From positions 235,813-299,812 of the forward strand of contig NZ_JAHEVJ010000003.1 of the NCBI RefSeq assembly GCF_018599245.1: DNA of 64,000 bases, in the 5' to 3' direction. The translations under genes and the position numbers were made by a program. This document shows positions 16,841 to 19,898 of this stretch, piece by piece. This stretch comes from Aliiroseovarius lamellibrachiae (lineage in GTDB: Bacteria > Pseudomonadota > Alphaproteobacteria > Rhodobacterales > Rhodobacteraceae). Each line of letters starts with the position of its first letter. The first letter of the stretch is position 1. The notes below the pieces were generated by a model, which saw only the letters and a program-made list of their open reading frames with translations, searched no databases and was not told the origin of the DNA.

Positions 16841-17851
16841 TTACATGCCTTTGGCAATCATCCCGGTAACCATGTCATAGAGCTCCTGTGCGGGCAGGCC
16901 GCGGGCGGTGTTCTCTTCGATCCAGGCTTTGGCCGCGGGTGCTGCGGCGGCATCCTTAAAGGCAGCAAGCTCAGCGTCGGTGAAAGTCACCCGTTGAATG
17001 CCACGCTCGTCCAGCGCAGGTCCCCAAGCGGCCATGGTTTTGTTGTTGTAATTGTCAATATAGTGGTCAAGGGCCTCGTCGACCGAACCCAAAAGCGCGT
17101 CGCGCTGGGCGTCAGGCAGGTCGGCCAATGCGTCAGAGTTCACCACAACGGGGCAATTCACCGTGCCGGGGTTCAGGTTGGTGGTCCACCATGTGGCATT
17201 TTCAATTGTGCCAAATGACATATGCGCGTGGGGGGCAAAGCTGACGGCCTTGACGACGCCCGAATCCATCGCCTGACGCACTTCGGTCGCCGACATAGAG
17301 GTCGGGACCGCGCCGATGGTTGCCATGGCTTGGCCAATGCCGCCGGTGGCGCGTACGGAAAGCCCCTTGAAATCTGCGAGTGTGGCAGGCGCATCACCGA
17401 CCCCAACCAGATTATATTGTGGCAAAGGTGATGGCATCAAAAGGGTGGCGTTCCACCGCGCCAGATCCGCCACTGCCGCCGGGTGCTGATACAGCGCCAT
17501 CGACAAATCTCGTTCCTGTTCAAGCGAGGTCACGCCGAGAAAGGGCAGTTCCAGAACGGTGATCGAGGGGTTTTTATCGCGGTGATACCCGGCACAAAAC
17601 TGTGCCATTTCAAACGCGCCAATGGAAATACCGTCCAGGTTTTCCTTATTCTTTGACAGACCGCCGTAGGAAATATTCAGAGTGAATTCGCCATTGGTTT
17701 TGGCGGCGACCAATTCGGCCAGCTTTTCCACATGTTCCGTAAACGCGCGGCGTTTGCCCCAGACGGAAACGCTCCATTCGGTTGCCATGGCTTCGGTTGC
17801 AAAAGCAAGAGACAGCGCGGCAACAGCCCCGCGGGTGATAAATTTGTGCAT
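16841..17851 (-). CDS. dctP: TRAP transporter periplasmic substrate-binding protein
   Basis: A 336-residue DctP-type solute receptor with a signal peptide (MHKFITRGAVAALSLAFATEAMA, cleavage near residue 23). The mature protein shows the domain order of the family, including GLSVRATGGIGQAMATIGAVPTSMSATEVRQAMDSGVVKAV; the arginine of LSVRATGG is the usual carboxylate-binding residue, so an organic acid ligand is likely. Start at 17851 is fixed by a GGGAGGAAAAC ribosome site. It is the first gene of the operon. The ligand remains unknown: neighbours (small-RNA locus, mrp, uvrD) give no clue. Confidence 0.92.
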   Translation of the reverse strand: MHKFITRGAVAALSLAFATEAMATEWSVSVWGKRRAFTEHVEKLAELVAAKTNGEFTLNISYGGLSKNKENLDGISIGAFEMAQFCAGYHRDKNPSITVLELPFLGVTSLEQERDLSMALYQHPAAVADLARWNATLLMPSPLPQYNLVGVGDAPATLADFKGLSVRATGGIGQAMATIGAVPTSMSATEVRQAMDSGVVKAVSFAPHAHMSFGTIENATWWTTNLNPGTVNCPVVVNSDALADLPDAQRDALLGSVDEALDHYIDNYNNKTMAAWGPALDERGIQRVTFTDAELAAFKDAAAAPAAKAWIEENTARGLPAQELYDMVTGMIAKGM

Positions 17852-17970
17852 GTTTTCCTCCCAGATCACGCAGATGCCCAAAGCTTACATCTTTGTGGCG
17901 AGCTGCCAATGCCCAATTCTGACCAAATGGAAAAAAGGTCTGGTGTTTGTGTGCGCAGAAGGATTGGAGC

Positions 17971-18297
17971 CGCAAAAAACAAACGGCGACGCCCGGGAGG
18001 AGGGGCGTCGCCGTCTTTTCTGATGTGGCCCTCAGGGAGGAGCGGGCCATTTCAGCTGCCATCAAGATCAGGGAGGAGATCTTTTTGGCGATGCGAACAC
18101 CCCGGGAGGAGGAAGGGGTGGTTCGTAACTTTGGGGGAGCGGCAGCCTCTTGGGAGGAGGTAAGATGCTGCCGCGTCCCATGAGCCAGCTAGGGAGGAGG
18201 AAACTGGCCCGAAAAAGGTGACTGGCGGGGGCCGGGAGGAGGTAGCCCCCGCCGTCATTCGCGGCACCGCAGGGAGGAGAGCGGTGCGCGGGAAACG
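17971..18297 (-). ncRNA. Array of eight CcsR/cuckoo-type small-RNA hairpins with CUCCUCCC loops
   Basis: Starting one base after the DUF1127 stop and running leftwards, eight hairpins each expose the loop CUCCUCCC (plus strand GGGAGGAG at 18272, 18234, 18192, 18152, 18104, 18071, 18035 and 17995, each eight bases). The stems differ: 18264-18287, 18224-18253, 18184-18208, 18139-18174, 18094-18125, 18058-18089, 18025-18050, 17984-18013. The last has an 11-bp stem followed on the minus strand by TTTGTTTTTTG, a terminator. In Rhodobacter sphaeroides four such RNAs (CcsR1-4) follow a DUF1127 gene, are processed from its transcript and respond to stress through RpoHI/RpoHII. Loops resemble the anti-Shine-Dalgarno sequence. 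Homology rests on loop, layout and neighbour; the number of mature RNAs is inferred. Confidence 0.88.
17984..18013 (-). terminator. Terminal hairpin and terminator of the CcsR-like array
   Basis: CGGCGACGCCC / GGGCGTCGCCG, perfect 11-bp stem whose loop is itself the CUCCUCCC motif; minus-strand continuation is TTTGTTTTTTGCGG. One structure thus serves as both sRNA loop and transcript end. Confidence 0.85.
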
Positions 18298-18513
18298 TTA
18301 TGCGCCGTAAGCGGCTTTGCGAGCGATCGAAGAGATTTCGCTGCGGGCGATGCCCAGGTCGCCCAGCTCGCGGGTCGACAAATTGTTCAATTCACGAACG
18401 GTTTCGCGATAGAGGCCGCGTTTTGCTTGGGCTTCTTTCCAGGTCGCAACGGTTGCGAACAGGCGGTCAACGATGCCGGCGTGGGCGTTAAAGATCTCGG
18501 TTGCATGTGCCAT
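18298..18513 (-). CDS. DUF1127 small protein (CcaF1-like)
   Basis: A 71-residue basic protein whose C-terminal half is a DUF1127 domain: RGLYRETVRELNNLSTRELGDLGIARSEISSIARKAAYG. Small DUF1127 proteins act as RNA-binding factors in several alphaproteobacteria; the R. sphaeroides member CcaF1 is encoded ahead of the CcsR RNAs and affects their maturation. Here too the gene is followed directly by the hairpin array, supporting orthology. The ATG at 18513 has only a weak GAG-type ribosome site, possibly relevant since the encoded RNAs mimic anti-Shine-Dalgarno sequence. A GCGGC/GCCGC hairpin lies in the leader (18554-18566). Confidence 0.85.
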   Translation of the reverse strand: MAHATEIFNAHAGIVDRLFATVATWKEAQAKRGLYRETVRELNNLSTRELGDLGIARSEISSIARKAAYGA

Positions 18514-18821
18514 GCTATGTACTCACTCTTCGTGTGCTTGCGCGTTTCGGTTTGCGGCTTTGCCGCTAAAATCAGGTGGCGCCGTTCTTGGCGTCGTTGG
18601 GGGATAAATGGCGCTAACGCTGCAACTGCACAATCCCTGGATCACTCAATGCCGCTATGCAGAAAATGCATACGTAGTACTGACCTATCCTCACAAAACC
18701 GTTACATTAATCTGCCGCGGCCAAAAATCAGGGTTGATTGTGTGGGGTGGAGTGTCGCGCCCCCTTGTGTCTGGTGAAAAACGCGGCAAATGTGTGCTCT
18801 GAATTGCTTCTGGAGGTGGCT
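18514..18821. promoter_or_regulatory. Divergent DUF1127-mrp intergenic region with a palindrome
   Basis: 308 bases. It contains a small leader hairpin (GCGGC TTT GCCGC, 18554-18566) and a perfect palindrome TATGCA-GAAAA-TGCATA (18656-18672) that could be an operator. I looked for heat-shock (RpoH) or RpoE promoter elements on the minus strand and found none convincing: TGATCC occurs at 18637-18642 but no matching -10 follows at the right distance. Confidence 0.4.
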
Positions 18822-19898
18822 GTGACCCAAACGCGCGACGAAATTATGTCTGTTCTGTCTTCTATCGCTTTGCCCGACGGGGGGGATCTTGCCTCTCGTG
18901 ATATGGTGCGTGCGCTTTTGATTGACGGGGGCAAGGTCAGTTTTGTGATCGAAGCTGAAAACGCCGATATGGCCGCCAAAATTGAACCACAGCGCCGTGC
19001 GGCAGAAGCGGCGGTTGCGGCACTTGATGGGGTTGAAAAGGTGTCCGTGGTGCTGACCGCGCATGGCCCCGCGCAGCCGTCAAAGCCCGCGCCAAACCTG
19101 AAAATTGGCGGTCATCCAAAACCACAAGCGGGGCCGTTGGCGGTGCCGGGCGTGAAGAACGTGATTGCGATCGCGTCTGGCAAAGGGGGTGTGGGGAAAT
19201 CCACGGTCAGTTCAAACCTTGCGGTGTCCTTGGCAAAGGCGGGGCGCAAAGTTGGCCTGCTGGACGCCGATATTCTGGGGCCAAGCCAGCCGCGGATGAT
19301 GGGCACCAATGAACGTCCCTCAAGCCCCAACGGTGAAATGCTGGTGCCGGTTGAGGCGCATGGCGTCAAACTGATGTCAATCGGCTTGATGCTAAAGTCG
19401 GATCGGGAATCGGTGATCTGGCGCGGCCCCATGTTGATGGGCGCGCTGCAACAGATGTTGTTTCAGGTCGAATGGGCCCCCTTGGATGTGTTGATCATTG
19501 ATTTGCCGCCGGGCACGGGCGACGTGCAGCTGACGCTGGCGCAAAAGTCGCAAATCTCGGGCGCGGTGATTGTTTCAACCCCGCAAGACGTGGCGCTTTT
19601 GGATGCGCGCAAGGCGATCGACATGTTTGGCAAGGTGAATATCCCCATTCTGGGTCTGATCGAAAACATGTCGAGCTATGTTTGCCCAAGCTGTGGTCAT
19701 GAGGCCCATTTGTTTGGCCATGGCGGCGTGAAGTCCGAGGCCGAAGAGCTTGGTGCGCCGTTCCTTGGCGAAATCCCCCTGTCGTTGGATGTGCGTCTGG
19801 CGGGGGATGCCGGGGCGCCCGCTGTACTTGAGGGTGGGGCCGCTGCGGACGCTTACGCGTGCATCGCGCAGGACCTGATTGGTCGCGGACTAGCCTAG
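18822..19898 (+). CDS. mrp: Mrp/ApbC-type iron-sulfur cluster carrier ATPase
   Basis: A 358-residue Mrp/NBP35-family protein. Residues about 1-80 form the MIP18/DUF59-like N-terminal domain; the P-loop [10 protein letters not shown] (119-128) is the deviant Walker A with two lysines, and VCPSCGH near the C-terminal third provides the CxxC pair that holds a bridging [4Fe-4S] cluster between two subunits. Family role: assembly or transfer of Fe-S clusters to apo-enzymes, with complex I subunits among likely clients. Start: GTG at 18822 with a TGGAGG ribosome site five bases ahead; an upstream reading to 18738 is unsupported. A terminator follows at 19932. Confidence 0.94.

Follow-up and report, generated by a model that had tools for sequence, protein, structure and literature searches.

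The locus lies on the minus strand of a 64-kb window from Aliiroseovarius lamellibrachiae, the window being the whole stretch of DNA that was analysed. A DUF1127 protein gene (71 aa; 18298-18513; PF06568, E 7.8e-10) is followed in the same direction, immediately 3′ of its stop codon, by an array of eight hairpins with the loop CUCCUCCC (17971-18297), bounded at its far end by a terminator, as the initial annotation had described. The divergent neighbour mrp/apbC (18738-19898, plus strand; PF10609, E 1.1e-98) is outside the mechanism and is used here as an orthology marker; the next gene directly downstream of the array is dctP, encoding a TRAP binding protein. Overlapping reading frames within the array gave no Pfam match and were dropped as genes. 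The array is a single locus in the genome.

CTCCTCCC is found eight times in the 64-kb window, always on the minus strand and always between 17995 and 18279 (1.4 copies expected; no shuffle reached eight). Spacing from loop to loop is 33-48 nt, and the nine-base family motif CCUCCUCCC is intact in five of the eight loops, with T or G preceding CUCCUCCC in the other three. The predicted fold of the 17965-18300 RNA has an energy of -164.8 kcal/mol (z = -10), with every loop placed within its own hairpin. For seven units, 0-6 of 300 arm-shuffled controls matched the observed energy; for unit 6 the figure was 16 of 300. All on the minus strand and grouped by pair (see below), the units are hairpin 1 (18260-18290; loop 18272-18279; -18.5 kcal/mol; with compensatory changes) and hairpin 2 (18219-18257; loop 18234-18241; -27.0 kcal/mol) in pair 1; hairpin 3 (18182-18210; loop 18192-18199; -13.4 kcal/mol) and hairpin 4 (18137-18177; loop 18152-18159; -19.6 kcal/mol) in pair 2; hairpin 5 (18094-18125; loop 18104-18111; -14.2 kcal/mol) and hairpin 6 (18058-18089; loop 18071-18078) in pair 3; and hairpin 7 (18020-18055; loop 18035-18042; -16.4 kcal/mol) and hairpin 8 (17981-18016; loop 17995-18002) in pair 4. 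Hairpin 8 is both an array member and the intrinsic terminator (14 pairs, then GTTTTTT). The arms of hairpin 5 are far from the sister-species sequence, with pairing nonetheless kept. Hairpin 6, which had been singled out as a weak unit, does have the weakest fold (-9.8 kcal/mol) and an AT-rich stem in this species, but its stem is stronger in other species of the genus. The eight hairpins are real RNA structures.

In all 20 same-genus genomes searched the DUF1127 gene is present and the eight hairpins correspond one-to-one, in the same order, except that the last loop is N-masked in one genome and loop 5 is degenerate in another. Cross-species chimeras, each combining the 5′ arm of one species with the 3′ arm of the corresponding unit from another, were compared with native stems unit by unit: native stems are on average ~4-9 kcal/mol more stable, and just 3-17% of chimeras equal their parents. 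Ungapped alignable close orthologues contain 35 distinct double-sided pair-keeping changes, at least one in each of the eight units, these coevolution counts not being independent events given the relatedness of the species. MAFFT alignments of the whole array or of single units, which left some loops out of phase (odd units), were replaced by the arm swaps and ungapped orthologues. The covarying arms first noticed in the window are thus seen as compensatory changes in every stem, and conservation among relatives extends beyond the octamer. Regular spacing and an identical core might also be expected of GGGAGGAG octamers without RNA structure arising by chance, or of a mobile, REP- or CRISPR-like array; the stems, however, differ and coevolve, eight units are kept over 20 species at a single genomic locus, and the chimera energies and compensatory pair changes refute this reading, which retains practically no probability. 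Together these comparisons argue strongly for selection on the stems as stems, with much of the stem sequence drifting. One congener has a second DUF1127 gene (L061:1423-1647; G157:C1:1056531), with another DUF1127-like frame behind it and then two CUCCUCCC loops set far apart, possibly a small second array.

An Rfam search of the window at gathering thresholds returned no match; in E-value mode, CcsR1 (RF02791) and ar14 (RF02344) emerge. The 83-nt CcsR1 model aligns at full length with pair 1 (18216-18296, E 1.7e-7) and pair 4 (17978-18060, E 2e-7), at 37.6 and 37.4 bits, below the gathering cut-off of 65.3 bits. This cut-off marks CcsR1 itself and not the cluster, because the remaining six pairs of the R. 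sphaeroides assembly (39-47 bits) fail it too. The covariance search advised at the outset therefore finds the CcsR family for pairs 1 and 4 by E-value (~2e-7), but not by gathering score. For ar14, the window (46.7 bits) misses the cut-off of 58.8 bits, which is passed by same-genus orthologues (e.g. L042, 76.7 bits; L039, 68.3 bits).

Since the divergent mrp, the DUF1127 gene, the promoter and the hairpins all match the R. sphaeroides locus, the window locus is identified from sequence as the orthologue of ccaF1-CcsR1-4 of Rhodobacter (Cereibacter) sphaeroides (RSP_6037-RSs0680a-d), and the DUF1127 gene as that of ccaF1. The two loci have in common a 71-aa DUF1127 gene (56% protein identity to that of G051, taken as R. 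sphaeroides), the divergent mrp, a promoter core and CUCCUCCC hairpins in pairs of a first (A) and a second (B) hairpin; mrp/apbC also adjoins most array loci of the family, including those of Cereibacter johrii and C. azotoformans. In these two species the DUF1127 gene is followed by eight loops with spacings of 39/66/37/76/39/74/39 and 39/66/38/76/40/73/40, i.e. four pairs. The window array differs in its diverged stems, in its short between-pair linkers (~30 nt shorter than in Cereibacter, where loops of neighbouring pairs are ~66-76 nt apart) and in its last hairpin, which doubles as the terminator, while Cereibacter has a separate one. Behind ccaF1, the R. sphaeroides assembly carries seven units of two hairpins, of which five are nearly identical (L092 / L027; G051:C4:691717-692437).

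In R. sphaeroides, one co-transcript with ccaF1 gives rise to the four RNAs CcsR1-4 (PMC10253847), and RS0680a (CcsR1) has two loops (PMC3927594). The initial annotation, setting four named RNAs against eight hairpins, took the array to be doubled; four RNAs, however, amount to eight hairpins because each CcsR RNA has two. A two-hairpin covariance model (R1), built on 43 units from other genera, gave 62 matches in the genus, exclusively in registers 1-2 (18 matches), 3-4 (17), 5-6 (7) and 7-8 (20), with no shifted match. Pair 2 of the window is among them (18133-18217, E 8e-8); pair 3, which is degenerate here, is not significant in the window species and was found in seven relatives. Second hairpins are also marked by the 5′ arm motif [AG]CGG[CT][GA]N, which was picked post hoc after inspection of the data and occurs in 60 of 79 second versus 1 of 76 first hairpins elsewhere and, within the genus, in 59 of 62 units 2, 4 and 8, in none of 84 units 1, 3, 5 and 7, and in 9 of 21 units 6. 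The first view that the hairpins share only the loop is therefore not upheld: the stems do differ, but those of second hairpins tend toward this common arm. A leave-one-locus-out classifier separated first from second hairpins in 137 of 155 cases. From the exclusive R1 registers and the arm motif of second hairpins, the eight hairpins are therefore read as four A-B pairs with shortened linkers. Doubling, against which stand Cereibacter species with eight or more loops and matches to all four pairs within the genus of the window, is refuted by the eight-loop Cereibacter loci and the paired-register matches and is left with only the slightest probability. The name CcsR1-4 may undercount the tandem repeat.

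Because the linkers are shorter than in Cereibacter, processing into pairs may differ here, and a compact array could be left uncut, as one eight-loop RNA (or many one-loop RNAs) that soaks up the start sites of mRNAs in the manner of a multivalent sponge. The compact arrays of other genera, which have up to 16 loops, would suit such a role, as would the ~30 nt lost between pairs; against it, the A-B grammar is retained, all R1 matches are in the paired register, and the first two between-pair linkers still slightly exceed the within-pair linkers in most species of the genus (e.g. loop spacing 40/49/38/45/38/40/43 in L041). We consider the sponge unlikely, and keep the reading of four A-B pairs. 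One congener (L056) retains 76-nt spacing between pairs 1 and 2.

Of 149 family genomes, sampled at one per genus, 122 have at least one tandem loop pair; across the order the same holds for 118 of 121 sampled genomes. The comparison of unit number called for at the outset gives 2 to 16 loops per array in relatives, with compact arrays of up to 14-16; the number eight itself is ordinary, and the genus-specific trait is that eight loops are retained. Assignment to CcsR/cuckoo-type RNAs behind a DUF1127 gene, and the anti-Shine-Dalgarno-like character of the loop, were both correctly recognised at family level from the start. The cuckoo RNA family, or CIN1 locus (Reinkensmeier and Giegerich 2015), has, as citing papers describe it, the same CCUCCUCCC loops, a variable number of hairpins and an association with short DUF1127 genes, named CIN1. 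Rhizobial alpha-r14 / NfeR1 (RF02344, ar14) likewise has adjacent hairpins with a common loop and variable stems, and a TGCA-N6-GCAT site lying about equally far upstream of the start, but it is a free-standing sRNA of three hairpins with a sigma-70 promoter and, as far as described, is not preceded by a DUF1127 gene.

A scan for sigma-70 promoters gave no candidate at the locus, and the promoter was instead recognised by conservation: TTGTGCAnnTGCAGC (18633-18619) and an RpoH-like -10 element, CGCCATTT (18613-18606), together spanning 18606-18633 on the minus strand, are conserved in 53 array loci, and the core TTGTGCAnnTGCAGC followed by a -10 of CCCATNT type is common to the window locus and Cereibacter. 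In all 53 core-bearing array loci TGC[AG]-N6-GCAT lies 36-37 nt upstream of the core, here at about -71 to -58 if the start is estimated at ~7 nt after the -10; the LsrB site of NfeR1 is at -72 to -60 (PMC10746234), and the site in array loci is predicted to be the same. In the window, TGCATTTTCTGCAT (18670-18657) overlaps TGCATAGCGGCATTG (18661-18647), giving a palindromic predicted VtlR/LsrB operator (18647-18670, minus strand). The VtlR motif of Brucella is CAATGCAGCCATGCA (PMC12595884), and the best match to its complement is at -27/-28, overlapping TGC[AG]-N6-GCAT, in 52 of 53 loci, with two or fewer mismatches in 26 of the 52 and four to six in many congeners; the window copy has 2/15 mismatches, and no other site in the 64 kb has fewer than three.

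A candidate for the regulator is encoded in the same genome. The neighbourhood of trxB was tried as a marker for lsrB and rejected: in the window genome the gene sits between an Lrp-type gene and an RHS-like fragment; because no LysR gene adjoins trxB there, the orthologue was sought by sequence, with the protein adjoining trxB in a distant alphaproteobacterium as reference. The RHS-like fragment lies directly downstream of trxB (L117:798-1409, contig C1). The best LysR protein of the window genome (G000:C14:146131-146997; L135) is 50% identical to the reference over 292 aa (E 1e-87; next best, E 3e-34), with 55 of 66 positions identical in the DNA-binding domain. One protein 45-51% identical to the reference, and far ahead of the next, is encoded by the window genome and likewise by all 11 other Rhodobacteraceae tested, orthology being judged from identity and the gap to paralogues. 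VtlR/LsrB-like LysR orthologues across Rhodobacteraceae are at L130-L141; the one of R. sphaeroides lies at G051:C4:1631580-1632446. LsrB has been called unique to Rhizobiales (PMC11975290); the protein has also been described as conserved in many Alphaproteobacteria (PMC7486931).

Brucella VtlR activates three DUF1127 genes and AbcR2 (PMC12595884). The window locus resembles the VtlR/LsrB regulon of Rhizobiales (AbcR2, three DUF1127 genes, NfeR1) in having the CAATGCAGCCATGCA complement at its promoter and a LysR orthologue in the genome, and differs in that its site is a predicted one beside an RpoH-like promoter. No literature naming VtlR or LsrB was found that also treats CcsR. On balance we favour, somewhat cautiously, the view that a VtlR/LsrB-type LysR regulator directly controls the DUF1127-CcsR operon throughout Rhodobacteraceae, acting via TGC[AG]-N6-GCAT overlapping TGCATAGCAGCATTG at a fixed position upstream of the RpoH-like promoter, as part of one ancient circuit.

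As an explanation of the locus as a whole, a ccaF1-CcsR operon producing stress-driven, processed RNAs that block Shine-Dalgarno sequences appears very likely, with stress induction, processing and mode of action carried over from the orthologous locus. The R. sphaeroides operon has an RpoHI/HII-dependent promoter and is induced by singlet oxygen and superoxide (PMC3320616); its CcsR transcript is cut by RNase E and turned over by PNPase (PMC7866481), and CcaF1, which binds RNA, influences how CcsR is processed (PMC10253847). By orthology, RpoHI/RpoHII, probably together with the VtlR/LsrB-type LysR regulator, would turn the operon on under stress, and the transcript would yield a small RNA-binding protein and, via RNase E cleavage in which that protein assists, short RNAs that each comprise one A-B pair. 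Their exposed CUCCUCCC loops would pair with G-rich Shine-Dalgarno sequences (GGGAGGA/GGGAGGAG) and stop translation of several mRNAs, plausibly those for periplasmic solute-binding proteins of transporters, so that metabolism would be throttled during stress. The loops would be redundant, and the stems would hold them open and keep the RNAs stable, with little other constraint on stem sequence except in the 5′ arm that B hairpins share.

An alternative is that the hairpins act chiefly in cis, stabilising the DUF1127 mRNA as its 3′ UTR and binding the DUF1127 protein, with the loop a protein-binding motif and not a seed for pairing with mRNA. The position of the array directly behind the DUF1127 gene across the genus, the RNA binding by CcaF1 and its effect on CcsR processing (PMC10253847), and a motif of second hairpins that extends beyond the loop into the 5′ arm would all fit. 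NfeR1, however, has the same loops and pairs with mRNAs at their ribosome-binding sites to silence them, and mutation of its three loops abolishes target silencing (PMC10746234). A mainly cis role seems improbable, more so than the sponge, and silencing in trans by a processed ccaF1-CcsR transcript remains the preferred explanation.

Prediction of targets from the loop, suggested at the outset, was carried out by pattern searches of the genome, which found 48 GGGAGGA-N4-9-ATG sites versus 3 for the reversed pattern. Among 20 encoded proteins scanned from GGGAGGA sites six are solute-binding, three of them of DctP type, a share that is indicative only, as 10 of the 20 were chosen partly for their look of transporter or stress proteins. 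The solute-binding candidates include dctP downstream of the array, whose Shine-Dalgarno region and ATG (GGGAGGAAAACATG; 17849-17862, minus strand) include 7 nt complementary to the loop. Shine-Dalgarno-like sequences are common, and all of these are predicted targets. Among the loci compared, only the sister species also has dctP as the array neighbour.

The array is a new, well-conserved member of the CcsR/cuckoo RNAs, and its comparison with relatives settles how they are to be counted, eight hairpins being four two-hairpin RNAs. The 5′ arm that second hairpins tend to share may be where CcaF1 or a processing enzyme binds. The promoter site, which is unreported, may connect the operon with a known regulator of rhizobia and Brucella, and makes it testable whether one LysR regulator stands over DUF1127 proteins and anti-Shine-Dalgarno RNAs in all Alphaproteobacteria. 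If so, an ancient alphaproteobacterial circuit, from VtlR to DUF1127 proteins and anti-Shine-Dalgarno small RNAs, would underlie both AbcR/NfeR1 in Rhizobiales and CcsR in Rhodobacterales, where protein and RNA would have been merged into a single operon.
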